The notes under the pieces: model-generated | Seen by the model: only the letters and a program-made list of their open reading frames with translations | What the model was told of the DNA's origin: nothing | Database searches by the model: none | In this document: in pieces, positions 949-20,782 of the stretch | How positions within the stretch are numbered: position 1 is the stretch's first letter | How the letters are laid out: each line of letters opens with the position of its first letter | Assembly (NCBI GenBank): GCA_001899255.1 | Contig: MKVX01000016.1 | Location: 1-40,299 of the forward strand | Reading direction: 5' to 3' | From: Rhizobiales bacterium 62-47 | GTDB taxonomy: Bacteria > Pseudomonadota > Alphaproteobacteria > Rhizobiales > Xanthobacteraceae | DNA length: 40,299 nt | Program-made: the position numbers and the translations under genes

Positions 949-1025
949 GCGCCCCTAGCTCAGCTGGATAGAGCGCCACCCTCCGAAGGTGGAGGCCACA
1001 CGTTCGAATCGTGTCGGGCGCGCCA
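949..1025 (+). tRNA. tRNA-Arg (anticodon CCG)
   Basis: A 77-nt cloverleaf with CCA encoded. D arm GCTC/GAGC; anticodon arm CCACC/GGTGG with loop CTCCGAA, so the anticodon is CCG; T arm ACACG/CGTGT with loop TTCGAAT; discriminator G. The acceptor arm GCGCCCC/CGGGCGC pairs at six positions, but position 7 is a C facing C66, a mismatch not expected in a normal arginine tRNA. tRNA-Arg genes are common integration sites, and a related 3' half recurs at 13727-13771. The mismatch could mean that the 3' half was brought in by an integrating element. Confidence 0.93.
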
Positions 1026-1689: not shown

Positions 1690-1715
1690 GTAACCTTTCC
1701 GAAGCTCGATCGAAC
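1690..1715 (+). promoter_or_regulatory. Predicted SigF-type promoter of the VKOR operon
   Basis: GTAACC, 15 bp starting TTTC, then CGAAC. The same two blocks with identical spacing stand before four other units in the window (4910-4935, 9426-9451, 11707-11732, 13386-13411). They resemble the GTAACC/CGAA promoter type described for Caulobacter SigF, and a SigF-like gene lies at 6160-6792. The position sets transcription start near 1722, which favours the VKOR start at 1778. Confidence 0.8.
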
Positions 1716-1777
1716 TGTCCCTATAGATGCCGCATGATCCTTCGGGCCACTGCGGCGATCGAAGGTACCGTGCGACG

Positions 1778-2173
1778 ATGAGTTACTTCCGCCACATCGC
1801 CTTCGCTGTCTCAGTGGCCAGCACAGCCGCGATGTTCTACGTCGGGCTGTACCAGAGCCGTCTGGTCGGGCGCCTCATCTGTCCGTTCCTCGGTCAGCAA
1901 TGCGAAGGCGTCGCCGACGCCCCCTTCGCGCGGCCCTTCGGGATTCCGGACGGTTACATCGGGGCGGCTCTGTACGTCGTGATCCTAGGCCTGTTGCTCG
2001 CTCCGCCAGCCCGCTGGGTCTGGATCGCGCTGCTCATCCTCGCCGCCGTGGCGACGGCGGCCAACGTACTCGGCCTCCGCGACATGATAAACTTCGGCGG
2101 CTACTGCTTCTACTGTCTTACGACCGCGGTATTGTCCCCAGTGCTACTCTACTCGATCTGGAAGCTCGGGTGA
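1778..2173 (+). CDS. Vitamin K epoxide reductase (VKOR) family membrane protein
   Basis: Predicted integral membrane thiol oxidase of 131 residues. VKOR proteins pass electrons from thiols to quinone and in bacteria drive disulfide formation outside the membrane. The two expected cysteine pairs are present: C35 and C42 in the loop after the first membrane helix (LICPFLGQQC), and the active-site CxxC C110-F-Y-C113 near the last helix. The segment FGIPDGYIGAALYVV matches the family's second helix. There is no fused thioredoxin domain, so a separate partner is needed; thioredoxin-like proteins at 11283 and 12395 are candidates. An upstream ATG at 1727 exists but would be almost leaderless given the promoter at 1690-1715. 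The stop overlaps the next gene's start (TGATG), so the two are translationally coupled. Confidence 0.85.
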   Translation: MSYFRHIAFAVSVASTAAMFYVGLYQSRLVGRLICPFLGQQCEGVADAPFARPFGIPDGYIGAALYVVILGLLLAPPARWVWIALLILAAVATAANVLGLRDMINFGGYCFYCLTTAVLSPVLLYSIWKLG

Positions 2174-3732
2174 TGTCGGAGAAGTCGGCCATGGATGCCA
2201 AGAGCCTTGCTGCATTCGCCCGTGGTCAGGCTTCGGGCGGAGGCTCTTCCGGTCGGCGCGTGGATTCGGACTACGTCTTTCACGAACTCACCCGCAGCAT
2301 CTGCCCATCCTGCAAGATGGTGATCGATGCCAAGATCCTGCTCCGCGACAACAAGGTCTACATGAGCAAGCGGTGTTCGAATTGCGGGCCGTTCATGGCG
2401 CTCGTCTACGACGACGCGCGGGCTTACGTGTCGTTTGCCCGCTTCAACAAGCCCGGCACGATCCCGCTGGCGTACGGCACGCGGCACGACGAGGGCTGCC
2501 CGCACGATTGCGGGCTCTGTCCCGACCACGAGCAGCACACCTGCCTCGGAATCATCGAGGTGAACAGCGCGTGCGACATGGACTGTCCGCTCTGCTTCGC
2601 GGACGCCGCCCCCGGCTTCAGCCTCACGATAGAGGAAGTCGAGCAGATGCTCGACGACTACGTCCGCACGGAAGGCCAGCCGGAGGTCGTCCAGTTCTCC
2701 GGTGGCGAACCAACGATGCATCCGCGGATCATCGACTTCGTCCGCGCCGCCTACGCCCGCGACATCCGCTTCGTCATGCTAAACACCAATGGCAAGCGCA
2801 TCGCCCGGGACGACAGGTTTCTGACCGAACTCGAGAAGGTCCGCCCGTCGTTCTACTTTCAGTTCGACGGTTTCGAGCGCGAGACCTATCGCGCGATCCG
2901 AGGTGAACCCGATATCTTTGAGGAGAAGCTCCGTGCCCTAGACCGCCTCGCGGCAATCGGACTGGACGTGACCATCGTCCCCGCTATCGAACGCGGCGTC
3001 AATGAACATGAGATCGGACGAATCGTCGAATTCGCGATCGCGCATCCGGCGGTCCGCGGCATCACCTTCCAACCGGCGTTTCACGCCGGGCGGCACTCCG
3101 CCCACGACCCAATGCAGCGCATGACGATTCCCGAGATCGTCCGGCTGATCGAGACGCAGACCGCCGGCAAATTCGTCGCCTCCGACTTCGTGCCGGTGCC
3201 GTGCTGCTTCCCCACCTGCAATTCGGTGACCTACGCGTTCGTCGAGGATGGCAAGGTGACACCGCTCCCGCGCATCGTCGACGTCGGCGGCTATCTCGAC
3301 TACATTACGAACCGCATCGTGCCGGACTTCAGCCGAGAAATCAGGACGGCGCTTGAGGGACTCTGGTCCTCGTCCTCCGTCGCCGGCTCCGATGCGTCGG
3401 AACGGCGGGTCGCGATTTCGTGTCAGACCTGCGACCTTCCGGACGGCCTGGCGATCAACAGCATCGCCAAGAACATGATCATGATCATGCTGCAGGACTT
3501 CATGGACCCTTGGACGTTCAACCAGAAGAACGCGATGAAGTGCTGCAAGGAATTCCTGCTGCCGGGCGGCAAGCAGATCCCATTCTGCACATTCAACACT
3601 GTCGGTTACCGCGAGCAGGTGCGCGCACAACTGAACGCAATGGAGCCGGAGCGCCGCCGAGCCCGGAAGGAGGGTCGGCCCTACGAACCGAAGCCCATCG
3701 TCTTCGACTTCGGCGACAAGCGCGCGCGATGA
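2173..3732 (+). CDS. Radical SAM protein of the Tes/MJ0619-like family
   Basis: A 519-residue radical SAM enzyme. The N-terminal part has a zinc or rubredoxin-type knuckle (C44PSC47, C68SNC71), then C109PHDC113GLC116 and C124, followed by the canonical cluster motif C134xxxC138xxC141 with FADA after it. GGEPTMHP is the SAM-binding GGE region. The C-terminal third carries more cysteines (CCFPTC, CQTC, KCCKEFLLPGG, PFC), fitting auxiliary clusters. This order (CPSC, GCPxDCGLC, CxxxCxxCFADA) is that of the MJ0619 family, whose archaeal members include tetraether lipid synthase (Tes), which joins lipid tails by C-C bonds. The substrate here is unknown. It is coupled to the VKOR gene by overlap and to the methyltransferase gene by ATGA. 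The SigF-type promoter upstream suggests a role under metal or redox stress. Confidence 0.85.
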   Translation: MSEKSAMDAKSLAAFARGQASGGGSSGRRVDSDYVFHELTRSICPSCKMVIDAKILLRDNKVYMSKRCSNCGPFMALVYDDARAYVSFARFNKPGTIPLAYGTRHDEGCPHDCGLCPDHEQHTCLGIIEVNSACDMDCPLCFADAAPGFSLTIEEVEQMLDDYVRTEGQPEVVQFSGGEPTMHPRIIDFVRAAYARDIRFVMLNTNGKRIARDDRFLTELEKVRPSFYFQFDGFERETYRAIRGEPDIFEEKLRALDRLAAIGLDVTIVPAIERGVNEHEIGRIVEFAIAHPAVRGITFQPAFHAGRHSAHDPMQRMTIPEIVRLIETQTAGKFVASDFVPVPCCFPTCNSVTYAFVEDGKVTPLPRIVDVGGYLDYITNRIVPDFSREIRTALEGLWSSSSVAGSDASERRVAISCQTCDLPDGLAINSIAKNMIMIMLQDFMDPWTFNQKNAMKCCKEFLLPGGKQIPFCTFNTVGYREQVRAQLNAMEPERRRARKEGRPYEPKPIVFDFGDKRAR

Positions 3733-4565
3733 CCGGCCTCCAAGTCTCGCCAGAGACGATCAAGCGCTGCTGCGCGGCGGCCTACGATCACGCCGCCGTC
3801 CGGATCCTGGTCGGCGACGCCCTTCACCCCGGCGGGGCGCAGCTCACCGAGCGGCTGGGTCGGCTCCTGAATTTGACGCAGACCTCCCGCGTGCTCGACG
3901 TCGCGTCCGGACGCGGAGACGGCGCGCTGGTGCTCGCCGCGCGTTTGGGCTGCGAAGTCGTCGGTCTCGACTTCGGACGGCGGAACGTGGAGACGGCGGC
4001 AAAGGAGGCAAGAAACCTGAAGCTCGCCGACAGGGTCGCGTTCTACTGCGGCGACGCCGAGAGATTGCCCTTCGCCGACGGGACGTTCGACGCTGTCGTC
4101 TGCGAATGTGCGCTATGCACGTTTCCGGACAAGCCGACGGCGGCGGCCGAGTTCGTGCGCGTGCTGAAATCCGGTGGAACGGTCGGCATCAGCGACCTCA
4201 CGCGCAGCGGCCCCCTGCCCTGCGAACTCGAAGGGGTCGCCGCCTGGATCGCGTGTGTCGCGGACGCGCGACCGCTCGACGAGTACCGGGCGTTGCTCGC
4301 CGGCGCCGGCCTGGCTGTCGGCGTGACGGAAGCGCATGACAGCGCTCTGATCGACTTCGTGGAGGCGATCAGGTTGCGGCTTTTCACGACCGAGATCATG
4401 GTCGGGCTGAAGAAGATTGACCTGGCCGGCATTGACCTCGCCGCCGCCAAGGACATCGTCCGGCACGCGCTCGCCGCGACCAAGTCCGGCGTCCTCGGCT
4501 ACTCGATCGTGACGGCCACAAAGGATGCCGACCCTCGCGCCGGGGACCTCAAAGAACGACCTTGA
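3729..4565 (+). CDS. Class I SAM methyltransferase, ArsM-like
   Basis: A 278-residue Rossmann-fold methyltransferase. Motif I is VLDVASGRGDG (about 55-65), the acidic residue is in VVGLDFG, and the DAERLPFADGTFDAV block follows. The second half resembles arsenite methyltransferases: ISDLTRSGPLP, then WIACVADARPLDEYRALLAGAGL with a cysteine (C176) where ArsM has a conserved one, and an early cysteine pair C14-C15. Other ArsM cysteines cannot be placed with confidence, so arsenic methylation is only one possibility; modification of the radical SAM product is another. The start overlaps the radical SAM stop (ATGA). The 3' end overlaps the convergent DUF427 gene by 17 bp. No ars genes are near. 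Confidence 0.8.
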   Translation: MTGLQVSPETIKRCCAAAYDHAAVRILVGDALHPGGAQLTERLGRLLNLTQTSRVLDVASGRGDGALVLAARLGCEVVGLDFGRRNVETAAKEARNLKLADRVAFYCGDAERLPFADGTFDAVVCECALCTFPDKPTAAAEFVRVLKSGGTVGISDLTRSGPLPCELEGVAAWIACVADARPLDEYRALLAGAGLAVGVTEAHDSALIDFVEAIRLRLFTTEIMVGLKKIDLAGIDLAAAKDIVRHALAATKSGVLGYSIVTATKDADPRAGDLKERP

Positions 4566-4833
4566 CGCCCTTCCAGAAAGCGACCTTGCCAGCGATGTTT
4601 GTGGCCGCCGGCTTGGGATTCGGATAGTACCAAGCGGCATCAGGGTTCACGCTGCCGTCCACGTCGATCGTATAGTAGCGCGCGATGCCCTTCCAAGCGC
4701 ACGTAGTGACAGTGTCGCTATTCTTGAAATATTGCTCGGACAGCGAATCCGGGGGGAAGTAGTGATTTCCCTCCACGACTTCGGTTTGCTCCGCTTCAGC
4801 GATCACTTTGTCGTTCCAGATAGCTTTCGGCAC
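4549..4833 (-). CDS. DUF427 domain protein
   Basis: A 94-residue protein covering one DUF427 domain. The family signature is clear: KAIWNDKVIAEAEQTEVVEGNHYFPP, then TTCAWKGIARYYTIDVDG and the closing AAWYYPNPKPAATNIAGKVAFWKGVKV. The family forms a small beta-rich fold; its biochemical role is not established. The start codon is GTG at 4833, supported by AAGGAGAG seven bases upstream. A SigF-type promoter lies 77 bp upstream at 4910-4935, so it forms its own unit in the proposed regulon. Its 3' end overlaps the end of the methyltransferase gene running toward it, so both convergent units would be switched on by the same sigma factor. Confidence 0.88.
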   Translation of the reverse strand: MPKAIWNDKVIAEAEQTEVVEGNHYFPPDSLSEQYFKNSDTVTTCAWKGIARYYTIDVDGSVNPDAAWYYPNPKPAATNIAGKVAFWKGVKVVL

Positions 4834-4909
4834 GAATCTCTCCTTACCTCCAAGCGCCCGCGCAATGCCGGCATTTCAATCCGCAGGGGCCGCTGTGCTT
4901 TCCTAGACT

Positions 4910-4935
4910 GTTCGCTAGTCGTGGCGGTTGGTTAC
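4910..4935 (-). promoter_or_regulatory. Predicted SigF-type promoter of the DUF427 gene
   Basis: Read on the minus strand: GTAACC, 15 bp starting AACC, then CGAAC. Spacing is identical to the other four copies, although the TTTC found after GTAACC in three of them and in the VKOR copy is absent here. It points at the DUF427 gene. It directly follows the decayed AhpD-like gene. Confidence 0.72.
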
Positions 4936-4937
4936 GT

Positions 4938-5479
4938 CGATTTGCCCCGAGGCAGGCCCGCCCCGACTTCTCCGAGCATCTCGATCAGCGGGCGATTACC
5001 ACGCGCTGCGAGGCGACGTCCACGTAGGCTTGATCGAGCTCAATACCGAGGCCTTCGACGTGCCGGTTCATGTAGTTGAGTTGAAGAGCGCCACGGTCGT
5101 GACGAGGTGATAGTAGGCCTCGCCGTCCTATCCCGCAGCTAAGTCCGCATCGACGTCGGACTCGGCAGGCCGTTGGTGCGCTCCGTCAGCTTCGCGGCGA
5201 GTTCCAGCACCGGCCGCATCTTCGCAGGTATGTCGGCCTTGGGATCGCCTACATGTAACGCAGCAATTTGCCCCTTGCGGAACCGCCCAAACGCTCGGCG
5301 GGCGCGGCGTGCATGCCCTCAATACCGGCAACCGTTCAGGCTCGATACGTAGGCCGCGATCATCTCGCGTTCGGCCTCGGTGAACGGCGATGGCCCGCAC
5401 AGCAGCGCTTCGTCTCCGGTAACGTTTTGAAGAGGCCGATCAGCGTGGCCTTGGCGGGCAGCGACGGAAGATGAGTCAT
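4938..5479 (-). pseudogene. Decayed AhpD-like (carboxymuconolactone decarboxylase family) gene
   Basis: The start (ATG at 5479, with GGAAGG upstream) and the first 20 codons (THLPSLPAKATLIGLFKT) are intact. A frameshift then moves the match to another frame, reading GPSPFTEAEREMIAAYVSSLNGCRY, the conserved helix before the CxxC of peroxidase-related AhpD-like proteins, where a stop interrupts. Further pieces follow in shifted frames: PAKMRPVLELAAKLTE and, near the end, a trace of the last helix. The CxxC itself is lost. It lies 15 bp after nrsF on the same strand and so was the last gene of the bufferin/sigF operon. Loss of this peroxidase-like member while the rest is intact suggests it became dispensable. 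The 3' limit is approximate. Confidence 0.75.
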
Positions 5480-5494
5480 GGAGATCCTTCCGGC

Positions 5495-6163
5495 CTAGTC
5501 GCGGATTGACGGGCGCGGTGTGATCCATTGCAACATGCGGCGTCCGAACAGGGCCCCAAAGCCGACGAACATCATCGCTGTTCCGATGTTGAACATGATG
5601 ATCATCAGCGTCGCGTCTGCCGAGTGGAAGAGCGACAGGGCCGTCGCCGTGATCGCCGCGACCGCCAGGCTGCCCATGCACGTCACCGCGGTCGGACGCA
5701 ACGGCGCCGCGTAGCGCAGCATGACGAGCATCGCGAGCGATAGCGGCAGGCTGGTGAGCACCAACGTGGCCAGGCAACGTGTCGCCTCTCCGATCGAGAC
5801 GCCGTCGGGCCCGATCGACACCCAATCGCCGAGGCACTGGTAGCCGATGTTCGACAACCAGAGGACGACGGCCGGCGCCGGCAGAAGGAGCCACAAGCGC
5901 GAGCGGTCCGGCAGGCTCACCAGGAAGGCAGCGACGGCCGCGAGCACGCCCGTCAGGACCGCACCGACGATGCCGGCGGCGAAAGACGGATCGTGGATCC
6001 GCGACATGATATCCGGGCGGATCCCCTGGCTAACGGCCAGAAGTCCCACGACCACCGCCGCGAGCAGAAGCCAGCACGCCGCGCGCGTCACAGGAGGATG
6101 CAGCCGGCGTACCGGCTTCATGTTCCGGGAGAGGGATTCGATGAGATCAGGCGTCGCAATCAT
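5495..6163 (-). CDS. nrsF: NrsF-type anti-sigma factor (DUF1109)
   Basis: A 222-residue membrane protein with six likely membrane helices (first at about 27-45, last at about 186-206). Length, helix pattern and the ending GALFGRRMLQW match the NrsF/DUF1109 family. In Caulobacter, NrsF holds SigF inactive at the membrane until heavy metal or oxidative stress. The family usually has two conserved cysteines; C130 here matches the first, but the second, normally in an 'LHC' motif, is replaced by serine (S181 in LFHSAD). The start overlaps the sigma factor stop (ATGA), the classic arrangement for a sigma/anti-sigma pair. Confidence 0.85.
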   Translation of the reverse strand: MIATPDLIESLSRNMKPVRRLHPPVTRAACWLLLAAVVVGLLAVSQGIRPDIMSRIHDPSFAAGIVGAVLTGVLAAVAAFLVSLPDRSRLWLLLPAPAVVLWLSNIGYQCLGDWVSIGPDGVSIGEATRCLATLVLTSLPLSLAMLVMLRYAAPLRPTAVTCMGSLAVAAITATALSLFHSADATLMIIMFNIGTAMMFVGFGALFGRRMLQWITPRPSIRD

Positions 6164-6792
6164 GGCTCGCTCCGATCGCCCAGGATCTTCCGCAGGCTCT
6201 TTACCGCCCGATGCACGTTGACCTTGAGCGCTGCGATGGACATTCCGCTCGCCGTCGAGGCCTCCCTCAACGACATCTCCTTGAGCTTGAGTAGTTGTAT
6301 TGCCTTGCGCTGCATGGGGGAAAGCTCGTCGATCGCCTTTTCGAGTTCGCGTCTGTCGGGTGTCTCTTCAAGGTTCGCCTGAGGTTCGGCGAAGGTTTCA
6401 TGCTCGGGCGTCAGCGGGGTTTCCCGGTTGCGCCTGCGCCCCTGCCGTCGGAGCCGGTCGATGAACCGCCGGTTCGCGATCGTCACGAGCCACGGACCGA
6501 ATGGCCTGGTCGGATCGAACGTATGCCGGATCGCGTGGACGGTCAGCAGGATGTCCTGCACCGCGTCCTCGATGTCGCTCGGATCGCGATGCCGGCGTGC
6601 CGCCAGCGAGCGCAGATACGGCGTGATCTCCTGCAGCAAGCGCTGGTAGGCCGACCTGTCGCCGTCCTGGGCATGGGCCATCAGGATCGCCCAGTCGGTG
6701 TCACGGGCGGTGGGCTCGGGAACGGCAGGTGCGGCGTCACCGTCGCTGCCGACGAGCCTAAGCAGCGGCGGGCGACCGTTTCGCTCGGTCAT
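6160..6792 (-). CDS. sigF: ECF sigma factor, SigF-like
   Basis: A 210-residue ECF sigma factor. Region 2 spans about 34-115 (DIEDAVQDILLTVHAIRHTF, then FGPWLVTIANRRFIDRLRR) and region 4 about 145-202 (ELEKAIDELSPMQRKAIQLLKL, LREASTASGMSIAALKVNVHRAVKSLRK). The downstream gene is its NrsF anti-sigma factor. The start at 6792 is chosen because it overlaps the doxX stop (ATGA) and the SigF family begins at about this point; a longer frame reaches 6921 but lies inside doxX. It is predicted to read the five GTAACC/CGAAC promoters in the window, one of which heads its own operon, giving positive autoregulation. Confidence 0.88.
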   Translation of the reverse strand: MTERNGRPPLLRLVGSDGDAAPAVPEPTARDTDWAILMAHAQDGDRSAYQRLLQEITPYLRSLAARRHRDPSDIEDAVQDILLTVHAIRHTFDPTRPFGPWLVTIANRRFIDRLRRQGRRRNRETPLTPEHETFAEPQANLEETPDRRELEKAIDELSPMQRKAIQLLKLKEMSLREASTASGMSIAALKVNVHRAVKSLRKILGDRSEP

Positions 6793-7298
6793 GGAGGGCC
6801 TCCGCCAGAGACTCGAAGCCGACAGAGCGAGACGGCGAGATGGTCGAGCGAAAGCTTGCCAGGACCGAGCGCCATGAGCGCAACCGCGAGCGCCGCCCAC
6901 GGCAGATGGAAGTTTGCCCAACCCTCCGGCACGACCAATTGGATCACGCCCGTTATGACCAGGAGCGCAAGCGCGCTCAAGCGCGTCGCGAAACCCAAGA
7001 CCAGCAATACCGGCAGTACGATCTCCGCGAGGCCGTCGACGTAGGCGAACATGACGGGAAAGGGAAAATCGTACGCGTGTCCGGAGATGTGCAGCTTAAA
7101 CTCATCTTCAAAGAGAAATGACGCCGCCGGCGACAGGGACAGGAAGCTGTCCCACTTCGTCAATCCCGATTTGAAGAACGGCACGGCCAGAGCGACACGC
7201 AGCAACGGCGGCGCCACGACGCCAGCGAGCCGCGCGAGGCGCTCCACGAGGCCCCGCACGACACCTTCGATGGTCGATATGGCCGAGAAGGAACTCAT
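6789..7298 (-). CDS. DoxX family membrane protein
   Basis: A 169-residue protein with four membrane helices and the DoxX signature: LLRVALAVPFFKSGLTKWDSF in helix 1, a helix with FPVMFAYVDGLAEIVLPVLLVLGFATRLSALALL, and HLPWAALAVALMALGPGKLSLDHL at the end. DoxX proteins are small quinone-linked or redox-associated membrane proteins and are frequent members of bufferin operons, where their task is not settled. Both ends overlap neighbours by ATGA (bufC upstream, sigF downstream), so it is made from the same message. Confidence 0.85.
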   Translation of the reverse strand: MSSFSAISTIEGVVRGLVERLARLAGVVAPPLLRVALAVPFFKSGLTKWDSFLSLSPAASFLFEDEFKLHISGHAYDFPFPVMFAYVDGLAEIVLPVLLVLGFATRLSALALLVITGVIQLVVPEGWANFHLPWAALAVALMALGPGKLSLDHLAVSLCRLRVSGGGPP

Positions 7299-8083
7299 GC
7301 CTTTAACGGCTCCTGTGCGAACCCAAAACCGATCACCGCGCCCGCCCGGATAAGATCCGACAAATTCGCCGAAAGATCGAAACTCGGATCAGTAGCAATG
7401 GCTTCCTCGAAGGCAGCCAGCACCGGCCTTCCGGATTTGAGCGCGTGGATGAACTCCGGACTGCCATTTGGAATCGATCGAACCTCCACCGCGGCCTCAG
7501 GCCGGACGACGAGCGCGTTTTCGCCGCCGGCCGCCAAATCGACCGGACCGGGAACGCCGCCGTCGACGTTCATCTGCCAGATCGTCAGCGCCGGAAACCG
7601 CGAACGTACGATCCGGACCGACGGATGCAGCACCAGGGTGATGGCCGGAAACCGGTCCGATGCGATCTCCGCAAACGCCGAAAGACCGATCGGCGAGGCC
7701 TCGGCCGCATGATAGGCCTCCGTCCATGCGCGCTCGATGCGCGCCACGTCGGCCAGATACGGCAACACGGAAGCGGGTTCGAACCGGTCGATGAAATCGG
7801 GGAGGCCCGCGCCGTAGTCGAACAGCATCGGCGACCGGGGCAAATCACCAACGACGTAGGCGCGGGCCAAGGCGTGGAAGAATTCCGATCCGACGATGCG
7901 GTGCACAGCGGGATAGGCGTCCTTCAATGTCTGGGTAAGGCCAACCATCACGTTATTGCGATAGACGGCGAAGCGCCGCCAGCTCGGTTTCCCGTCGGGG
8001 CCGACAAGACCCGTCGGCACCGGAAGCGCCGGATCGAGCAGCGCGGCTGCGAAGCTGCGTTGTCCTTCAGCGAGCGACGGCAT
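7295..8083 (-). CDS. bufC: BufC-type RiPP partner protein (DUF2063)
   Basis: A 262-residue DUF2063 protein. The N-terminal part has the typical [16 protein letters not shown], then [31 protein letters not shown] and [10 protein letters not shown]; the middle has [24 protein letters not shown]2063 proteins partner MNIO (DUF692) enzymes and are thought to present the precursor peptide to the enzyme, as the equivalent does in methanobactin-type pathways. It starts inside the end of bufB (17 bp overlap) and ends in an ATGA overlap with doxX. There is no signal peptide, so it acts in the cytoplasm like BufB. Confidence 0.87.
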
Positions 8084-8951
8084 GACGACGCACCTCGGGT
8101 TGGTTGGCGGACATGACCATCTCGGCCCGCTCGGCTTCCTGCGCGAGCACGGACCAGGCCGGCACTTCGGAGTCCCACTCGATCAGAGTAGGAATCGGTC
8201 CGATGAGCCGGACCGCGAGTTCGTAGAGATACCAGACGGCATCCTCGACCGGACGATCGTGAGTATCGATGAGAAGCGGCCTGCCGGTCTCGTCGGCCTG
8301 CCGGTCGTTCCCGGCGAGGTGGATCTCCTTCACGCTCGCGAGCGGATAGCCTTCGATATAGGCGACCGGATCCCACTGCTGATTGGTCGACGCGACGAAG
8401 ACGTTATTGACGTCGAGCAGCAGGCCACAACCGCTGCGCCTGGCGACTTCGGCGATGAAATCGGTCTCCGCGTAGGTGCTCTCGGCGAACGCGACGTAGG
8501 TGGACGGATTCTCCAGAAGCATCTGACAGCCGAGGGCCGTCTGGACCCGGTCGATGTGCTCGACGACGCGCTGGAGGGTCTCGGACGTGTACGGCACGGG
8601 AAGCAGGTCGTTCAGGAAACCGGCATCATGCGTCGACCACGCCAGATGTTCGGAAAACAGACCAGGTCTGTAGCGCTGCCGTAACAGTCTTAGCCGCGCG
8701 ATATGATCGTCGTCCAGCGGCCTGTCCGCCCCGATCGACAGTCCGACGCCGTGAAGGGACAACGGGTACCGCTCCCGAATGGCCGACAGATAGCGATGCG
8801 ACGGACCTCCCGCCCCCATGTAGTTCTCCGCATGCACCTCGAAGAAACCGATGTCGGGCGCCGTCTCGATGATCATGCGGTAGTGCTCGGCCTTCAGACC
8901 GACGCCGGCGCGCGCCGGGATGCGATCTTCTGACGATGACGGAATGCACAT
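8067..8951 (-). CDS. bufB: BufB-type multinuclear iron oxidative enzyme (DUF692/MNIO)
   Basis: A 294-residue TIM-barrel enzyme of the DUF692/MNIO family. Expected metal ligands are all visible in order: [47 protein letters not shown] and LIEWDSEVP. These hold two or three iron atoms that use oxygen to modify cysteines; in bufferins the products are thiooxazoles that bind copper. The substrate is most likely the BufA encoded just upstream. The ATG at 8951 is preferred; a TTG two codons earlier (8957) is possible, and neither has a strong ribosome binding site. A stable hairpin lies between bufA and this gene and may lower its expression relative to the precursor. Confidence 0.9.
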
Positions 8952-8970
8952 TGGCAATCTCGAGGCTGGA

Positions 8971-8993
8971 GGGCGGGCCGTTGCAGCCCGCCC
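8971..8993 (-). promoter_or_regulatory. GC-rich hairpin between bufA and bufB
   Basis: A perfect 8-bp inverted repeat (GGGCGGGC and GCCCGCCC) around a 7-base loop, starting 8 bp after the bufA stop. No run of T follows on the minus strand, so it is not a full intrinsic terminator. In RiPP operons such stems often protect the precursor message or cause partial termination, giving more peptide than enzyme. That function here is inferred. Confidence 0.6.
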
Positions 8994-9001
8994 GGGTTTC
9001 G

Positions 9002-9343
9002 TCAGGCCTTCGGCGTGAGGCTTCCTGCACCCTTCGGCGTGTTCATGGTCGTGCAGGTACCCCTGGGCTCGAGCTTGAACGCGTTACCCTGGTAATCGAC
9101 GGTGCTGGTGCCAGCGCAGGTCGTGCCAGCTCCGGCGTAGCAGTCGTTCTGGCCCTTGAGAGCCACGCCGAAGCACTTCTCCATCTTGCCGCCCTCCATC
9201 GCCTTCATGGTCTGGGCCTGCTTCTCCTTCATCATCTTTTCCATGTCGGCCTTGCTTTGCGCGGTGGCGGACGTGGCGGCGAGCGCCCCGACGGCGACGG
9301 CGAACGCGCCGGCGACCATTGCGTTGAGCGTGCGATTGGACAT
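9002..9343 (-). CDS. bufA: BufA bufferin precursor peptide (DUF2282)
   Basis: A 113-residue secreted precursor. Residues 1-28 form a signal peptide (hydrophobic [18 protein letters not shown], cleavage near ATA-QS). The mature part has a Lys/Met-rich leader-like helix and the DUF2282 core EKC57[11 protein letters not shown]68, C76 in TTCAG, and PRGTC97: four cysteines in the conserved spacing. In characterised bufferins some of these cysteines are converted by BufB to copper-binding thiooxazoles before export. The start at 9343 has GGAGGA nine bases upstream. It is the first gene of the operon bufA-bufB-bufC-doxX-sigF-nrsF, with a SigF-type promoter at 9426-9451. Confidence 0.9.
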
Positions 9344-9425
9344 TCGAGTTCCTCCGGTGTTTGGGGCGACCTGGCGGAGTGCATGGTCGCAAGTCCGACG
9401 GGCCGTTCTTCCCGTCTGTACCGAT

Positions 9426-9451
9426 GTTCGTCGCAGCGCGCGAAAGGTTAC
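9426..9451 (-). promoter_or_regulatory. Predicted SigF-type promoter of the bufferin operon
   Basis: Minus strand: GTAACC, 15 bp starting TTTC, CGAAC; 82 bp before the bufA start. Since sigF is in this operon, the element would make the sigma factor autoregulated. Confidence 0.82.
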
Positions 9452-9472
9452 CCCCGCGAACACACGTGGGCG

Positions 9473-10312
9473 TCACGTACAGCCTTCCAATCGCGCGTCG
9501 AGCCACGCGATGTGCGCCTCGAGCGAGATATCCGTCGACGAAGTGATCTCGAGACGCCGATCCTCGAATACGTCGCAGTCGGTATGCGCCGCATGCCAAC
9601 GATCGACCGCAGCGTCGCGTTCGTGGAGAAGCCGCTCGATCTGCGGTCTGAACAGGACCAGCATCGAAGTGATCCAGCGGTCGAGGGGCCCCGCTCCGCC
9701 AAGCGCGAATCCGTCGACCATCGAGATCACGTCCGGCGCGCGGTACCACGTTTCCGCCGTCACCCATCGGTTCGTCGTGAACAGCCGCTCCGGCATGCCC
9801 GTCGGCGTCATCGAGATCGCGACGAGATGGGACATCGCAGCACCATCCTTTGCGGATCGAGAGTTGTCGGACCCCACTGGAACGACGCCAGGCGGCATTC
9901 CCGCCGCACCCATGAACGTGTGGAAGTGCGCGTAGTCGGAATGATCCCGGCCGGCCGGAGCGTGGGCGTGGAAAAAAAACTGCGCGTGGGTATTTGGGTC
10001 GCGCACGTCGTCGGGAGGATAGTGCTCCCACTCGACAAACTCCTGGCTGCCGCGCAGCGCCTCAACGATCAGGTTGCTGCCACATTCGTGAAGCTCGCGC
10101 ATGCAGTCGACGACAGTCTCCGCGGCGGTCGCCATGCGCGACAGCATCTCCGGCGAAAGCGCCGGCGCGTCGTCAGCAAGAGATACAATCGCAATCTGAG
10201 CGATCATATTGTCCGTTAACCTTGAACAGGGAATGGCCGGAGACGGCGTCATCTGGATGCCCGCCGTATCCTCCATTTGATCTCGCAACATCGCTGAAGG
10301 AGATGCGTCCAC
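9473..10312 (-). CDS. Unknown protein, probably DUF6969
   Basis: A protein of up to 279 residues without signal peptide or membrane helix. Recognisable blocks are MRELHECGSNLIVEAL, EFVEWEHYPPDDV, the histidine-rich HAQFFFHAH and YAHFHTFM, then SHLVAISMTPTGMP, LFTTNRWVTAETWY and WITSMLVLFRPQIE. I believe this is the DUF6969 family, recalled from memory; its function is not known. The histidines suggest metal binding or a metalloenzyme. The start is uncertain: GTG at 10312 gives the longest form, while ATG codons at 10288, 10276, 10252 and 10207 are alternatives and none has a clear ribosome binding site. It begins 12 bp after the NPC-peptide gene, so it is the last member of the thioredoxin-CcdA-peptide operon. 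Confidence 0.7.
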   Translation of the reverse strand: MDASPSAMLRDQMEDTAGIQMTPSPAIPCSRLTDNMIAQIAIVSLADDAPALSPEMLSRMATAAETVVDCMRELHECGSNLIVEALRGSQEFVEWEHYPPDDVRDPNTHAQFFFHAHAPAGRDHSDYAHFHTFMGAAGMPPGVVPVGSDNSRSAKDGAAMSHLVAISMTPTGMPERLFTTNRWVTAETWYRAPDVISMVDGFALGGAGPLDRWITSMLVLFRPQIERLLHERDAAVDRWHAAHTDCDVFEDRRLEITSSTDISLEAHIAWLDARLEGCT

Positions 10313-10324
10313 GAATCAGATTCG

Positions 10325-10522
10325 TTACTTTTTGGCGGCGCAGGGATTCGCCTTGGCCGCGCAGGGGTTCGCCTTGCACGGATTGGCGGCCTTCTTGGCC
10401 GACTTGTGCTTGGGCGCGCACGGGTTCGAGCCGGCAGCCGCCGGGACCGGGGTCGCCGCAACCATGCCGGCGACGGCGGCGATCGCGCCGAGGGTTTGCA
10501 GGCTCTTCTTCAGCGTAGGCAT
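10325..10522 (-). CDS. Secreted small peptide with four NPC motifs
   Basis: A 65-residue protein: signal peptide 1-30 (LGAIAAVAGMVAATPVPAAA, cleavage after AAA), then a mature part of about 35 residues made of Lys, Ala and four Asn-Pro-Cys units at 33-35, 47-49, 52-54 and 59-61. All four cysteines (C35, C49, C54, C61) sit in NPC. AAGGAG lies 8 bases before the ATG, so expression looks efficient. The composition is that of a periplasmic metal-binding peptide or a RiPP precursor; the MNIO BufB encoded 1.4 kb away could modify it, but nothing in the sequence proves this. The upstream CcdA and thioredoxin genes could keep its cysteines reduced. Confidence 0.75.
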   Translation of the reverse strand: MPTLKKSLQTLGAIAAVAGMVAATPVPAAAGSNPCAPKHKSAKKAANPCKANPCAAKANPCAAKK

Positions 10523-10561
10523 TTCAACAGCTCCTTGGGTTGTTAAGACAATCGACGCGCG

Positions 10562-11281
10562 TCACAGACGCGTCGTCACGTTCGCCAGCCATTCCGGCAT
10601 GGCGTTCGTCAGCGAGGTCTCGACGATCTTGTCGAGACCGGTGAGTACGAAGAGTCCGATGCCGAAGAAGGCGGCACCCATCAGAGGTTTTCCGATGCGC
10701 GACGCTCGCGCCATCCAATCCCGCCGTGCCATGATCGCCTGCCGCGAACCGTAGGCGAGCAGAAGAATGGGCGTCGCCGCTCCGAGCGCGAAGGCGGACA
10801 TCGTCGCTGCTGCCCTGCCGAGATCGTCGCCCTGGGCCGCAAGACCGATAGCCGCGCCGAGCGTCGGCCCCGAACATGGCGACCAGATCACGCCAAGCGC
10901 GGCTCCGAGCGCGAACTGGCCCCAGATACCGGTCGGCTGAAGGCGGTCGAGCAGGATCTGGCCTTTGCCGGCTACGGGAGACACCATCGCGGCCACCCCG
11001 CCCTGAAGCGCCGGCACAAGAAGGATCACCCCAGCGGCGCCCATCAGCGCGGCCACGGCAAGCCGCAACGTTTCAGGGTCTATGCCGACGCTGAAACCCA
11101 CCGATGCCAGCGTGATGCCGACGCCGGCGAAGGACGCCGCCAGTCCCGCAGCGAGCGCGACCGGTCCCCAGAGATGCCGCTCGAGCGCACCGAACAGCAC
11201 GATCGGTAGGATCGGGAGCACGCACGGCGAGAGCGTCGATAGGGCGCCGGCGGCGTAGCCCAGCGCGAGATTCGCGGACAC
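10562..11281 (-). CDS. CcdA/DsbD-type thiol electron transporter
   Basis: A 239-residue membrane protein with six helices. The two transmembrane active-site cysteines are present in their motifs: LSPC20VLPILP in helix 1 and WSPC136SGPTLG in helix 4. Proteins of this kind pass electrons from cytoplasmic thioredoxin across the membrane to periplasmic thioredoxin-like proteins. The start is GTG at 11281, two bases after the thioredoxin stop, so the two are coupled and the exported thioredoxin is the likely partner. The gene for the NPC peptide follows after 39 bp, making it a plausible final beneficiary. Confidence 0.87.
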   Translation of the reverse strand: MSANLALGYAAGALSTLSPCVLPILPIVLFGALERHLWGPVALAAGLAASFAGVGITLASVGFSVGIDPETLRLAVAALMGAAGVILLVPALQGGVAAMVSPVAGKGQILLDRLQPTGIWGQFALGAALGVIWSPCSGPTLGAAIGLAAQGDDLGRAAATMSAFALGAATPILLLAYGSRQAIMARRDWMARASRIGKPLMGAAFFGIGLFVLTGLDKIVETSLTNAMPEWLANVTTRL

Positions 11282-11282
11282 T

Positions 11283-11663
11283 TCAGAACGCCTTCGCCAC
11301 CAGCGCGCGCAGCGGCGCCGGATTGGTCTCGCCGGTGGAGCGCGCGACTTCCTTCGATCCCTTAAACACGATCAACGTGCTCTGGTACTGGACGCGAAAC
11401 TGTTTCAGGACGTCCTTGGCGCTGTCGAAATCGACTTCGAATACGACCAGATCGGGACGCTCCTTTTCGATCTGCTGCACGATCGGGCGCTGCTGCTTGC
11501 AGGTCGGGCACCACGGCGCGGTGACGTCGACGAGGATCGACTTGCCGGCGGCCTGCGAGGCCTGGAAGGCCCTGGCGTCGAAAGGCTGCCCGGCGTTCGC
11601 CAGCGAAGGCATCGCGATGACTGCAGCGACAACGATGGCCTTAAGAAGGAAGCTCGAGGACAT
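11283..11663 (-). CDS. Exported thioredoxin-like protein
   Basis: A 126-residue thioredoxin-fold protein. Residues 1-24 form a signal peptide (LLKAIVVAAVIAMPSLANA). The active site is W51-C52-P-T-C55 in ILVDVTAPWCPTCKQQRP, and the family's second half is present (VVFEVDFDSAKDVLKQFRVQYQSTLIVFKGSKEVARSTG), although the usual cis-proline before the TLI strand is replaced by serine. The start at 11663 has GGAGAG upstream and a SigF-type promoter ends 44 bp before it. It heads the operon thioredoxin, CcdA, NPC peptide, DUF6969. It acts in the periplasm, probably as a reductase fed by CcdA. Confidence 0.87.
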   Translation of the reverse strand: MSSSFLLKAIVVAAVIAMPSLANAGQPFDARAFQASQAAGKSILVDVTAPWCPTCKQQRPIVQQIEKERPDLVVFEVDFDSAKDVLKQFRVQYQSTLIVFKGSKEVARSTGETNPAPLRALVAKAF

Positions 11664-11706
11664 GACGGTGGCTCTCCGTGGGATGCTGAGACGTCTCGAG
11701 GTCACG

Positions 11707-11732
11707 GTTCGGCGATAACTAAGAAAGGTTAC
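11707..11732 (-). promoter_or_regulatory. Predicted SigF-type promoter of the thioredoxin/CcdA/NPC operon
   Basis: Minus strand: GTAACC, 15 bp starting TTTC, CGAAC, with the downstream block 44 bp from the start codon. It lies between the divergent thioredoxin and peroxiredoxin genes and faces only the former. Confidence 0.82.
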
Positions 11733-11820
11733 GCGGGCCCACGAAAAATATTGGACGTGCCTTCGGGCGCAGCGCGCTCTACATGACCGCATGCGCTTTC
11801 CGCAAAAAAGGACCCGCACA

Positions 11821-12381
11821 ATGACGGATATTGCTCCCCTCTTTCCGAACCAAACGGTCCCGCCGCTCGGAATCGAACTCGCCGGTGGCGGCTCATTCGA
11901 TCTCGCATCTGAGAAGCCGACCAACTTCACGCTCGTCGTGTTCTATCGCGGGCTTCATTGTCCTATCTGCAAGACGCAGCTCAAGGACCTTGAATCCAAG
12001 CTCGAAGATTTCGAAAAACGTGGTGTCGCCGTCGTGGCCATATCAACGGATCCTAAGGAACGTGCAGAACGAACACGGGAAACGTGGGGACTTTCGCGGC
12101 TGCGAGTCGGTTACGGTCTCGCCCTCGCGGCCGCTCGTCGCTGGGGACTGTACGTATCGTCGGGGCACGGAAAGACGTCGGCTGGCGTCGATGAGCCGGC
12201 GCTCTTTTCGGAGCCTGCCATCTACCTGGTGAGACCGGACGGCACCCTCTACTTCGGCAGCGTACAGACGATGCCGTTCGCGCGTCCGCATTTCTCCGAC
12301 ATCCTTGCCGCGATCAATTTCGTCGTGGAGAATAGGTATCCCGCTCGCGGCGAAGTGGTGGACCTCCGGAAGGCAGTGTAG
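11821..12381 (+). CDS. Peroxiredoxin-like protein (AhpC/TSA family)
   Basis: A 186-residue cytoplasmic protein. FYRGLHC47PIC50 is the signature of the peroxiredoxin-like AhpC/TSA subfamily, with a CxxC at the peroxidatic position; the preceding NFTLVVF and following VVAISTDPKERAE complete the thioredoxin fold. The C-terminal block ALFSEPAIYLVRPDGTLYFGS is typical. It probably reduces peroxides or acts as a thiol oxidoreductase. The start at 11821 has AAGGA upstream. It is divergent from the thioredoxin operon and convergent with the TlpA-like gene (13 bp between stops). No GTAACC/CGAAC element faces it, so it may be regulated separately. Confidence 0.85.
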   Translation: MTDIAPLFPNQTVPPLGIELAGGGSFDLASEKPTNFTLVVFYRGLHCPICKTQLKDLESKLEDFEKRGVAVVAISTDPKERAERTRETWGLSRLRVGYGLALAAARRWGLYVSSGHGKTSAGVDEPALFSEPAIYLVRPDGTLYFGSVQTMPFARPHFSDILAAINFVVENRYPARGEVVDLRKAV

Positions 12382-12394
12382 CAGGTCGCCGTCC

Positions 12395-13027
12395 CTACGT
12401 TCTGCTCAGATAGGTGATGAGGTCGTCCGCCGCCGCGGACGACCAATCCGCGTCGCCCGGCATGTAGCCGACGACCGCGCCCGAGCTCGAGACGGCGTAG
12501 GTGATCGGCATGCCGTAGAGTGCGAACGGTGCCTTCTTGGCGTTGTCGGCGTTCGAGTGCGCTACATATCCGTTGGGATCGAGAAAGATTGGAAGCGCCT
12601 TCAGATCGAGCGACTTCACGAAGCGCGCGACGGCCTCGCGCGGCCCGCGATCTTCCGAAATGGCGGCGACATGTACTCTGCCGCGCCAGGCGTCCCGATA
12701 CAGCCTGTCGAGAGCAGGCAACTCCATCCGGCAAGCCGCGCACCACGATGCCCAGAAGTTCACGAGGATCGGCTTGCCGAGCAGCGACGATAGGTCGGTC
12801 GTGCCGCCATCGAGACGGAATAGCCTGACCGAAGGCAACTGCTCTCGCGGGCGGAGGACGGTGAACTGGTATCGTCCGGATTCGAAGTTGGGAACGTCGT
12901 CTTCTACCGCAGTCGCTTGGTCGGCTGCGATTCCGGCCGCCAAGCCGGCCAGGCAGCGCATCAGGATTGCGCGTCGCGAGGGCATCCGCGCTGCGCCAGG
13001 ATCGGCGACGATCGCTTCTTTTTTCAA
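12395..13027 (-). CDS. TlpA/DsbE-like exported thioredoxin with Tat-type signal
   Basis: A 210-residue redoxin. The N-terminus has a twin-arginine stretch (SRRAILMRCLAGLAAGIA) that looks like a Tat signal, with cleavage near ATA. The TlpA fold follows: LFRLDGGTTDLSSLLGKPILVNFWASWC96AAC99RMELPALDRLY, then HVAAISED and a GMPITYAVSSSGAVVG block with the cis-proline. The start is taken as TTG at 13027 because its TTGA overlaps the upstream gene's stop and AGGAG lies 5 bases before it; an ATG at 12985 would shorten the protein by 14 residues and has no ribosome binding site. It acts outside the cytoplasmic membrane, possibly reducing or maturing cysteine-rich metal proteins of the same regulon. 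Confidence 0.83.
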   Translation of the reverse strand: MKKEAIVADPGAARMPSRRAILMRCLAGLAAGIAADQATAVEDDVPNFESGRYQFTVLRPREQLPSVRLFRLDGGTTDLSSLLGKPILVNFWASWCAACRMELPALDRLYRDAWRGRVHVAAISEDRGPREAVARFVKSLDLKALPIFLDPNGYVAHSNADNAKKAPFALYGMPITYAVSSSGAVVGYMPGDADWSSAAADDLITYLSRT

Positions 13028-13353
13028 TTTGACTCCTGCACCAACAACGCCGGCGACGACTGAGGGACGGCCGGTCGAAACGCGGTGAAAAAGAACAGCG
13101 GATTGGGCAGCCAGTACAACCATCCAATTGACCGTTCGCGGGTCCCATCCGGAAGACGTAGGTCGAGCCACACGTATAGGAACTTGTAGACGCAGAGCCC
13201 CGGAATCCAGTTCGGCTTCAGCCGCGAAGTCTTCAGATACCTCCTCGCGATGTAGTAGTTGCCTTCGAAGGGTGTGATTCCGAAGAGGCCGACCGGTCCC
13301 TCCGCGATGAGTTCGCCACTCGCTCGATGCGTGATCCGGACATGACGCGACAT
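13024..13353 (-). CDS. Unrecognised small aromatic-rich protein
   Basis: A 109-residue protein I cannot assign. It starts VRITHRASGELIAEGPVG, has FEGNYYIARRYL, and then a tryptophan- and tyrosine-rich part, VYKFLYVWLDLRLPDG and GWLYWLPNPLFFF. The early beta-rich stretch is faintly like DUF427, but the DUF427 ending (WYYP) is not present. No signal peptide is visible. Its gene is first in a two-gene operon with the TlpA-like protein (TTGA overlap) and lies 33 bp behind a SigF-type promoter. This coupling is the best reason to think it real. Confidence 0.68.
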   Translation of the reverse strand: MSRHVRITHRASGELIAEGPVGLFGITPFEGNYYIARRYLKTSRLKPNWIPGLCVYKFLYVWLDLRLPDGTRERSIGWLYWLPNPLFFFTAFRPAVPQSSPALLVQESN

Positions 13354-13385
13354 GCTTCGACTTTCTGTGCGATACTTGCAGATCG

Positions 13386-13411
13386 GTTCGCCGCATCCAG
13401 CGAAAGGTTAC
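13386..13411 (-). promoter_or_regulatory. Predicted SigF-type promoter of the TlpA operon
   Basis: Minus strand: GTAACC, 15 bp starting TTTC, CGAAC. The rest of the 370-bp gap between 13353 and 13727 holds no gene I can recognise. Confidence 0.82.
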
Positions 13412-13726
13412 CTGTCGTCGCGCGCGAAGTGTGGCGTAACCATTCCGCCTCTCCCGTCGAACGGTTCGGTGACGGTCCGTCGCCAACGGACAGATGGAGG
13501 AGATGCGATCCTTCTCCCGCGCTTTGGTGGAATCCGCGGTAAGTTTTGTAAGTTTCGGCATGTGTTGTGAGCGGCTTTTCCTTGGCGAACGCGCCAAGGA
13601 AGCACCGGGGCAAGGAGAAAACGAAAAATCGCTCCCTGATCTGATTCTTTGGCGGAATTCGTGTTTAGTATCAGCGTTTTATATGGGTTGGCGCGACAGC
13701 GCCTTCCCATGTCACTGACTACATCC

Positions 13727-13771
13727 CTCCGAAGGTAGAGGCCTCAGGTTCGAATCCTGATGGGTGCGCCA
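13727..13771 (+). repeat. 3' fragment of a tRNA-Arg gene, probable attachment-site scar
   Basis: From the anticodon loop CTCCGAA onward the sequence is tRNA-like: 3' anticodon strand GGTAG, T arm TCAGG/CCTGA with loop TTCGAAT, then TGGGTGC-G-CCA. The 5' half is missing; upstream bases do not pair. It matches the 3' part of tRNA-Arg at 949-1025 at about four of five positions, continuing into GCGCCATCTCTC in both. The T-stem differences compensate one another, so it comes from a real but different arginine tRNA, as expected if an element carried its own att half. It marks the left limit of the mercury/conjugation element. Confidence 0.75.
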
Positions 13772-14070: not shown

Positions 14071-14366
14071 GGCCAATTGCCAGCGAGGCGCATGGCGCAG
14101 CTCGACAAGTTGCTTGCCAAAATTCATCATGCGGCTGTCAAGTAAATCGACCGGACCGGCACTTGGGTGGTCAGGCCGAGTGCATTAGCCGCCGCCGCCC
14201 CATTGGGCACGATCACCTCACCGCGTTGGATCGCAAGCGCCTCGACCGCCTGTTCGACGGATGGCGCATGCGTGCCGAACCGGCTGGTGACCGGACGTAG
14301 ATAGAGACCGCGCCCAGCCCGGATCAGCTGGCCGCGCTCCGGAAGGCGCGACAAAGCTTGGTCCAC
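14056..14366 (-). pseudogene. DUF6088 (AbiEi-like antitoxin) remnant
   Basis: On the minus strand, residues such as QALSRLPERGQLIRAGRGLYLRPV, PSVEQAVEALAIQRGEVIVPNGAAAANALGLTTQVPVRSIYLT match DUF6088, the winged-helix antitoxin family related to AbiEi. After a stop and a frame change the next block VELRHAPRWQLALAG continues the same family. The N-terminus is cut by the merA remnant at 14367 and the C-terminus by the HigA remnant at about 14060. No toxin gene is near. Confidence 0.68.
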
Positions 14367-15046
<680 letters not shown>

Positions 15047-20069: not shown

Positions 20070-20070
20070 G

Positions 20071-20766: not shown

Positions 20767-20782
20767 AGCGTGGATCGCCGGA

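Follow-up and report, generated by a model that had tools for sequence, protein, structure and literature searches.

A putative horizontally shared ECF16 (SigF-NrsF) regulon with predicted soft-metal sensing in Rhizobiales bacterium 62-47

Introduction

Among the extracytoplasmic function (ECF) sigma factors of group ECF16, Caulobacter SigF reads the motif GTAACC-N16-CGAA (PMC3511200), the group consensus is tGTAACc-N16-CGAA, and Bradyrhizobium EcfF uses GTAAC(g,a)-N14-15 (PMC3420878). Copper induces the Caulobacter SigF regulon under every condition tested, and mutation of sigF makes the cells copper sensitive (PMC8224329); SigF-dependent genes are not induced by agents that generate reactive oxygen species (PMC3511200). 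Substitutions of C131 and C181 in the Caulobacter anti-sigma factor NrsF deregulate its targets (PMC3511200), and the Bradyrhizobium counterpart OsrA carries C129 and C179, of which C179 is required for the response to H2O2 (PMC3420878). Bufferins sequester copper in the periplasm (PMC12452194). These statements, and those on published systems below, reflect portions of the cited articles. Here, we describe a 12-kb island with an ECF16-type SigF-NrsF pair in Rhizobiales bacterium 62-47 (GenBank assembly GCA_001899255.1, contig MKVX01000016.1, positions 1 to 40,299 of the forward strand); this whole stretch of 40,299 nucleotides is referred to as the window.

We propose, with a probability of about 85%, that the island constitutes a horizontally shared and self-contained regulon of the ECF16 (SigF-NrsF) type with a soft-metal sensing function, comprising 16 genes in five units. 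The promoter-like motif, its clustering, the gene content, and the recurrence in relatives were observed directly.

Results

Promoter-like sites

A preliminary description of this DNA had placed GTAACC and CGAAC blocks, 15 bases apart, at five positions, and our search recovered exactly these five on the strands described, with a spacer of 15 in each (Table 1). In 100 dinucleotide-shuffled versions of the window, the strict motif GTAACC-N15-CGAAC occurred 0.02 times on average and never reached five copies (0/100). In the whole genome (4,916,030 bases, 23 contigs), it has five matches, all of them inside the window and within 11.7 kb, and the backward-read control has four. The relaxed motif GTAACC-N15/16-CGAA has 14 matches, six of which lie within positions 1690-13461, against 20 for its control. 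Based on the control densities, the probability of the observed clustering is ~7e-13 for the strict motif (at least five) and ~2e-11 for the relaxed motif (at least six). Because the relaxed total stays at 14 against 20, the motif evidence consists of the clustering and the strict form and not of a genome-wide excess. The other eight relaxed matches are all inside open frames of at least 150 amino acids (8/8), but so are five of the six island sites; this test was dropped because it does not discriminate in this GC-rich DNA.

Measured from CGAA to start codons chosen by the analyst, the five strict sites lie 63, 77, 83, 44, and 33 bases upstream of their units, which reproduces the range of 33 to 83 given before. 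They precede 16 genes (3+1+6+4+2), as read from the sequence. The earlier estimate was about 17 genes; the AhpC/TSA-like redoxin gene has no such site. A sixth site, GTAACC-N16-CGAAC, had been overlooked; its spacer is that of Caulobacter. No further exact blocks with spacers of 14 to 17 are present in the window.

The blocks agree, as had been stated, with the Caulobacter SigF promoter type (GTAACC-N16-CGAA) and the ECF16 group consensus. From the sequence alone, a two-block motif of fixed spacing would suit operators of a DNA-binding regulator as well as sigma factor promoters, and nothing supports the operator explanation directly. It is very unlikely, because blocks and 15/16-base spacing equal those of published ECF16 promoters (PMC3511200, PMC3420878, PMC8315932), the five sites face their units at 33 to 83 bases, the two blocks differ from each other and are not palindromes, and the only regulators assigned within the island are SigF and NrsF. 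The presence of this pair among the sites, also part of the preliminary description, is backed by Pfam: an ECF sigma factor with regions 2 and 4 adjoins an NrsF/DUF1109 gene (PF04542, PF08281, and PF06532, all over cut-off), and both here and in relatives the motif clusters around such a pair.

The island in relatives

Loci in relatives are labeled L### (L037/L119, Roseiarcaceae; L038/L117, Afipia; L040, a betaproteobacterial metagenome-assembled genome). The same units, mostly with the same motif blocks, are carried by Roseiarcaceae, Afipia, and two Bradyrhizobium relatives. The island is shared with L037 at 91.9% over 12.9 kb, including the tRNA-Arg(CCG) at its left end, with Afipia sp. 1NLS2 at 84-86% in three long pieces, and with Bradyrhizobium BR13661 at about 75%. 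The relaxed motif has 16, 17, 20, and 29 matches in four carrier genomes, of which 7, 4, 6, and 7 are in the island; the backward controls, in the same order, have 30, 14, 34, and 56.

In BR13661, each of the five units has a counterpart headed by a site, and another site lies at the sixth place; three of the six have a spacer of 16. Since an exact match was the criterion for sites in relatives, their cores are identical by definition; the informative point is their placement before the right units despite diverged spacers (43/91 identical to the window) and flanks (55/180 and 63/180). The units of B. erythrophlei are reshuffled, and sites precede its bufferin-sigF-nrsF, DUF427, 109-aa/TlpA, and VKOR units. 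Sites thus stand before most counterparts of the same units in relatives, consistent with the earlier proposal that the units would belong to one regulon.

These comparisons also bear on the idea that the motif copies arose by recent duplication or carry-over inside a single island, with no shared control. A longer block, GTAACCTTTC, common to four of the five strict sites could be taken as a trace of such copying. The spacers and flanks of the window's copies look unrelated to one another, however, and the diverged flanks and rearranged gene order in relatives largely contradict this explanation, which we consider extremely improbable.

Beyond the closest carriers, L040 has a site before VKOR, and L042 has two GTAACT sites between divergent thioredoxin (Trx) and VKOR units. 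Exact relaxed sites occur in L037-L041 and L045 among the 14 loci L037-L050, and L047 has one with a spacer of 14; the remote loci are mostly without. In Afipia, DUF6969 is reduced to a 34-residue remnant and the NPC peptide (see below) was not found. Afipia has two further regions (L115/L116 and L118), and each of them combines motif sites with SigF, NrsF, thiol-redox genes, and a bufferin operon, which indicates that the package is modular. A search for near-identical plasmid copies of the island found none (one record, covering 8% of the query).

In L037/L119 and L117, the sixth site lies ahead of a complete gene for a membrane protein, identified as DUF6789 in L117 (Pfam, 105 bits). The similarity of the window to L037 and to Afipia L038 ends at position 13509 in both cases, within the start codon of this gene, and DUF6789 has no match elsewhere in the window; the sixth promoter is thus orphaned. 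L119 also has a seventh site (7106-7131, minus strand) before the gene of a secreted-looking protein, outside the part common to the window.

Gene content

The coordinates of sites and genes are listed in Table 1. The bufferin (Buf1) gene set is present, with a DUF2282 precursor, an MNIO maturase BufB over its cut-off, and a DUF2063 partner, from which a thiooxazole-modified, copper-binding bufferin peptide is predicted. The 65-aa NPC peptide matches no Pfam or NCBIfam family. The gap between the DUF427 promoter and nrsF (4936-5494) has no assigned gene.

Table 1. Predicted features of the island and its borders (positions in the window).
Feature	Position	Strand	Basis or occurrence
tRNA-Arg(CCG) near left end of island	949..1025	+	also at left end in L037
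SigF-type promoter 1, VKOR/radical SAM/methyltransferase unit	1690..1715	+	site also in L037, L038, L112 (place of L039), L040, L114 (place of L041)
VKOR family membrane disulfide oxidase	1778..2173	+	Pfam PF07884, 53.4 bits
Radical SAM enzyme with HMPTM zinc ribbon, Tes/TrsS superfamily	2173..3732	+	PF04055, PF23545
Class I methyltransferase, nearest DVU_1556 family	3729..4565	+	132 bits (cut-off 155); Pfam Methyltransf_11
DUF427 protein	4549..4833	-	PF04248, 107.8 bits
SigF-type promoter 2, DUF427 unit	4910..4935	-	site also in L037, L112, L113
NrsF anti-sigma factor, Cys110/Cys130/His180 layout	5495..6163	-	PF06532, 108.8 bits
ECF sigma factor, SigF/ECF16 type	6160..6792	-	PF04542, PF08281; TIGR02937 over cut-off
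DoxX membrane protein	6789..7298	-	PF07681
DUF2063 partner protein of bufferin maturase	7295..8083	-	PF09836
MNIO bufferin maturase BufB	8067..8942	-	NF050167, 379 bits (equivalog cut-off 310); PF05114
Bufferin precursor (DUF2282)	9002..9343	-	PF10048, 81.6 bits
SigF-type promoter 3, bufferin-MNIO-DUF2063-DoxX-sigF-nrsF unit	9426..9451	-	site also in L037, L117 (Afipia), L112, L113
DUF6969 protein	9473..10207	-	PF22308, 244 bits
65-aa peptide, four NPC repeats, signal-like N-terminus (by eye)	10325..10522	-	sequence; relatives in L037, L112
CcdA/DsbD-type membrane thiol transporter	10562..11281	-	PF02683
Thioredoxin, signal-like N-terminus (by eye)	11283..11663	-	PF00085
SigF-type promoter 4, Trx-CcdA-NPC-DUF6969 unit	11707..11732	-	site also in L037, L112; GTAACT in Afipia L117
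AhpC/TSA-like redoxin, without promoter of SigF type	11791..12381	+	PF00578
TlpA-like thiol-disulfide oxidoreductase	12395..13033	-	PF00578, PF08534; NF047696, 95 bits, below cut-off
109-aa protein, no Pfam/NCBIfam family match	13024..13353	-	counterparts in L037, L038, L112, L113
SigF-type promoter 5, 109-aa protein-TlpA unit	13386..13411	-	site also in L037, L117, L112, L113
Sixth SigF-type promoter, spacer 16, orphaned	13436..13462	+	heads membrane-protein gene in L037/L119, L117
32-base piece, 90.6% like tRNA-Arg, right of island	13725..13756	+	similarity

A variant cysteine layout of NrsF

The window NrsF has cysteines at positions 30, 110, 130, and 162. In the alignment, C130 is the first conserved NrsF cysteine, His180 takes the place of the second, and Cys110 is an addition about 20 residues before the first. 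The protein scores 21.7 bits against the NCBIfam equivalog AntiSigF_NrsF (cut-off 300) and does not have the pair of conserved cysteines known as C131/C181 or C129/C179. We therefore class the island as a variant rather than a standard ECF16 member. According to the published six-helix model, the third loop would be periplasmic, with C110 and C130 at either side of it.

To place this layout, 125 distinct NrsF sequences from 134 loci were compared; they were taken from search hits and are not a random sample, and two columns of slack were allowed in assigning layouts. The first cysteine is kept in 125/125. The layout is of the Caulobacter type in 81, of the Cys110 type in 28, and of a CxxC type in 9; four have no second cysteine assigned, and three have cysteines near both places. 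Every Cys110-type protein has His at the second place (28/28). In a FastTree phylogeny rooted at the midpoint, the clade that descends from the common ancestor of all Cys110-type proteins comprises 37 tips (support, 0.955), of which 28 have this layout, and parsimony requires 10 layout changes overall. A partial literature search of PMC3511200, PMC3420878, PMC8315932, and PMC6180224 found, in the portions covered, no description of a layout other than the two-cysteine one, and no title among 20 listed of 30 papers points to another.

At 29 NrsF loci, the short motif had 14 matches in eight loci, versus one for two scrambled patterns together. In 20 wider regions, which were hand-chosen, three of them for a nearby DUF6969, the count was 17 versus 3. 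The motif as a mark of every NrsF locus was rejected, given that only 8/29 loci matched. Counted by layout in loci of unequal length and with no scrambled control, GTAACC/GTAACT occurs at 32/81 loci of the Caulobacter type, 25/28 of the Cys110 type, 7/9 of the CxxC type, 3/4 with no second cysteine assigned, and 1/3 with cysteines near both places.

NPC peptides and DUF6969

DUF6969 is present in 90 of 385 sampled genomes of the class, and it is not named in the literature examined. Frames with at least three NPC repeats were found within 1.5 kb of DUF6969 in 12 of 30 loci (3.5-kb loci). In 20 wider loci, 5 have such a frame at a distance of up to about 5 kb; as 14 of these 20 overlap the 30, the counts depend on each other. 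The corresponding controls gave 0/29 (NrsF loci) and 0/26 (control loci). Of the same 30 loci, none reaches the threshold with the scrambles NCP, PNC, and CPN; 5 and 8 do so with the shifted readings PCN and CNP, a by-product of NPCNPC runs. Proximity of DUF6969 and NPC repeats is thus frequent but not general. That DUF6969 acts on NPC peptides is our guess from this proximity. An AlphaFold model of DUF6969 from a three-sequence alignment was useless (mean pLDDT, 36.9).

DUF6969 and NrsF lie within 5 kb of each other in 4 of 18 genomes that hold both (hand count; G000, G064, G155, and G198). L172 has a site behind SigF-NrsF, and the genes after this site encode an NPC peptide, Trx, CcdA, and DUF6969. 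An NPC gene close to SigF-NrsF is preceded by a site in L173 and on a Skermanella plasmid (L033), and in L171, a GTAACT site precedes an NPC gene divergent from SigF-NrsF-DUF6969. In two Azospirillum plasmid regions, the neighbors of DUF6969 are genes of the MlaE/MlaD type; neither region has an NPC frame, and no NrsF or sigma factor gene is annotated there. Long NPC-repeat frames with 18 to 30 repeats occur near DUF6969 in L129, L132, L135, and L173; the frames tested in L129 and L173 are fused to a cytochrome P460 domain (Pfam).

Radical SAM enzyme and methyltransferase

The radical SAM enzyme resembles Tes and TrsS in its zinc ribbon and radical SAM core and aligns to Tes over most of its length; Tes (PDB 7tol, 260 bits) is also the nearest solved structure by sequence. 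It differs from both in sharing an operon with a methyltransferase and in scoring below their cut-offs, with 317 bits to Tes (NF045702, cut-off 450) and 316 bits to TrsS (NF045646, cut-off 490). Identity with Tes or TrsS proper was rejected on these scores. The radical SAM protein and METHYLTRANSFERASE both score too low for the Tes, TrsS, and DVU_1556 families (DVU_1556, NF045667, 132/155).

A search of named genomes gave 15 radical SAM loci, namely, the 14 loci L037-L050 and an archaeal one, L051. Among the 14, a methyltransferase is nearby in 12 and VKOR in 6. VKOR profiles found none in 10 remote loci, so VKOR is not a general partner of the radical SAM enzyme; L051 was covered by this profile scan only and gave no match. 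On a Mycolicibacterium plasmid, a 52% identical radical SAM protein and a methyltransferase lie beside CcdA and a disulfide oxidoreductase. The link between the radical SAM enzyme and thiol redox thus recurs outside Proteobacteria at least once.

Genus context, borders, and mobility

Of seven same-genus genomes, one lacks NrsF and the other six have a single NrsF whose cysteine layout is of the Caulobacter type (a partial match in one case). An island-type NrsF was not found in any of the seven (7/7), nor was GTAACCTTTC-N11/12-CGAA (0/7). The shared island is thus missing from those members of the genus that were sampled. The genome itself has a second NrsF (G000:C23:189729-190337; L026, L175) with the Caulobacter-type cysteine pair, beside an ECF sigma factor and a methyltransferase; the upstream stretch examined holds no GTAACC promoter.

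The spread among relatives and the tRNA gene suggest that the 12-kb block may be mobile. No integrase was found among the proteins scanned, which did not include every frame. Just left of the tRNA-Arg gene (108-428, minus strand) is a small HTH_17 protein (26.6 bits; cut-off, 27), which we take to be excisionase-like. To the right, positions 15543-40166 encode a heavy-metal P-type ATPase, a major facilitator superfamily (MFS) protein, MerF, Trb/VirB-type conjugation proteins, two MerA-like reductases (one over cut-off), and a MerB-like lyase (over the Pfam cut-off and below that of NCBIfam). By eye, more than one reading frame in 14310-14990 has segments similar to a pyridine-nucleotide disulfide oxidoreductase. 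At 19984-20967 (plus strand), a second CcdA/DsbD-type protein is followed by a relative (20783-20967) of a small cysteine-rich GDCC-motif protein that lies near the island end in L112, L117, and L119.

Discussion

For transcription, signal, topology, and enzymatic roles, we infer the following from sequence. NrsF, an inner-membrane protein of six helices by the published family model, would hold the sigma factor. The signal would be a soft metal in the periplasm, most likely copper, and may act on the Cys110/Cys130 pair of NrsF, perhaps together with His180. The freed sigma factor would then read GTAACC-N15/16-CGAA, leading to transcription of the five units (16 genes), with positive feedback because one of these units ends in sigF-nrsF. 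The predicted products are a copper-chelating bufferin peptide with its maturase and a second Cys-rich (NPC) peptide with DUF6969. VKOR, Trx/CcdA, and TlpA may oxidize or reduce thiols and so keep peptide cysteines and envelope thiols in the right state; the Tes/TrsS-like radical SAM and methyltransferase pair and DUF427 would be further outputs.

A more specific version of this regulon is tentative, and we hold it to be possible rather than likely. It describes a traveling ECF16 regulon whose sensor cysteines, Cys110 and Cys130, flank one periplasmic loop and act with His180, unlike the known two-loop pair, and which controls bufferin and an undescribed NPC peptide; DUF6969 would process or load this second peptide, and Trx/CcdA would supply it with thiols separately.

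As to the signal, our best guess is copper or another soft metal, with oxidants possible. It is argued by analogy, from copper induction in Caulobacter, the copper role of bufferins, and the missing OsrA-type cysteine. The preliminary description had left the choice between metal and oxidative stress; metal is better supported by the Caulobacter copper response and by an NrsF without the OsrA-type cysteine, and the oxidative half is weaker. A real regulon that responds instead to oxidative or chlorine stress (H2O2, HOCl), with the thiol-redox genes as its main output, would fit the many such genes in the island, the H2O2 response of Bradyrhizobium EcfF-OsrA through C179 (PMC3420878), and the induction of a Brucella ECF16 target operon by HOCl (PMC8315932). 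Yet the C179 position of OsrA is His in the window NrsF and in 28/28 proteins of the Cys110 type, the bufferin operon at the island center is a copper chelator system, and SigF-dependent genes of Caulobacter are not induced by reactive oxygen species, which makes an oxidative signal rather unlikely.

Several observations weigh against a soft-metal-sensing SigF-NrsF regulon as proposed here. (i) Regarding the motif, the relaxed total in its own genome is not above the backward control, and the totals are below control in three carriers (16/30, 20/34, and 29/56; Afipia, 17/14). The second SigF-NrsF pair (C23) might read the same motif. (ii) Regarding the units, Trx-CcdA-redoxin of B. erythrophlei follow nrsF with no site before Trx, Afipia L038 has no recognizable site before the DUF427 unit, and the Afipia Trx unit has only a GTAACT variant site (L117). 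(iii) Regarding the sensor, C129 of OsrA is predicted to lie within the membrane (PMC3420878), and a crude hydropathy scan of the window NrsF did not flag the third helix. (iv) Regarding the signal, the case for copper draws on Caulobacter, where the cysteines of NrsF are laid out differently; stationary-phase cells of a Caulobacter sigF mutant are reported to be weak against oxidative stress (cited in PMC8224329), which also speaks for an oxidative signal; and Sinorhizobium ECF16 targets are unresponsive to H2O2, Cd, and chromate (PMC6180224).

The regulon proposed here would put DUF427, DUF6969, NPC peptides, and the Tes/TrsS-like radical SAM and methyltransferase pair into one metal-response program, in which sigma factor and target promoters appear to move between genomes as one package. 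The sensor-cysteine layouts within one anti-sigma family provide a natural comparison, so that the NrsF signal can be probed by residue changes.

Compared with known systems, the island shares with Bradyrhizobium japonicum EcfF-OsrA the ECF16 pair, a promoter of the GTAAC(g,a)-N14-15 kind, and a cysteine-controlled anti-sigma factor (PMC3420878). OsrA, however, has C129 and C179 only, whereas the window NrsF keeps the first (C130), has His at the second, and adds Cys110. With bufferin clusters, it shares the DUF2282 precursor, the MNIO BufB, and DUF2063, and sigma factor and NrsF genes are known in Buf1 clusters; the window's other promoter-linked units are not among the bufferin neighbors described in the portion of that source covered here (PMC12452194). 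With Caulobacter crescentus SigF-NrsF, it has in common the promoter blocks, the ECF sigma factor with NrsF, and the bufferin targets DUF2282-DUF692-DUF2063-DoxX (PMC3511200, PMC8224329). The two differ in the spacer (16 in Caulobacter, 15 in five of the six window sites), in the NrsF cysteine layout, and in the position of sigF-nrsF, which ends the bufferin operon in the window, whereas sigF has its own promoter in Caulobacter. The window adds the VKOR, radical SAM, DUF427, NPC-peptide, Trx/CcdA, and TlpA units, and the Caulobacter list has YedY instead. With these differences, the copper-induced SigF regulon of Caulobacter is the nearest known kin of the window regulon.

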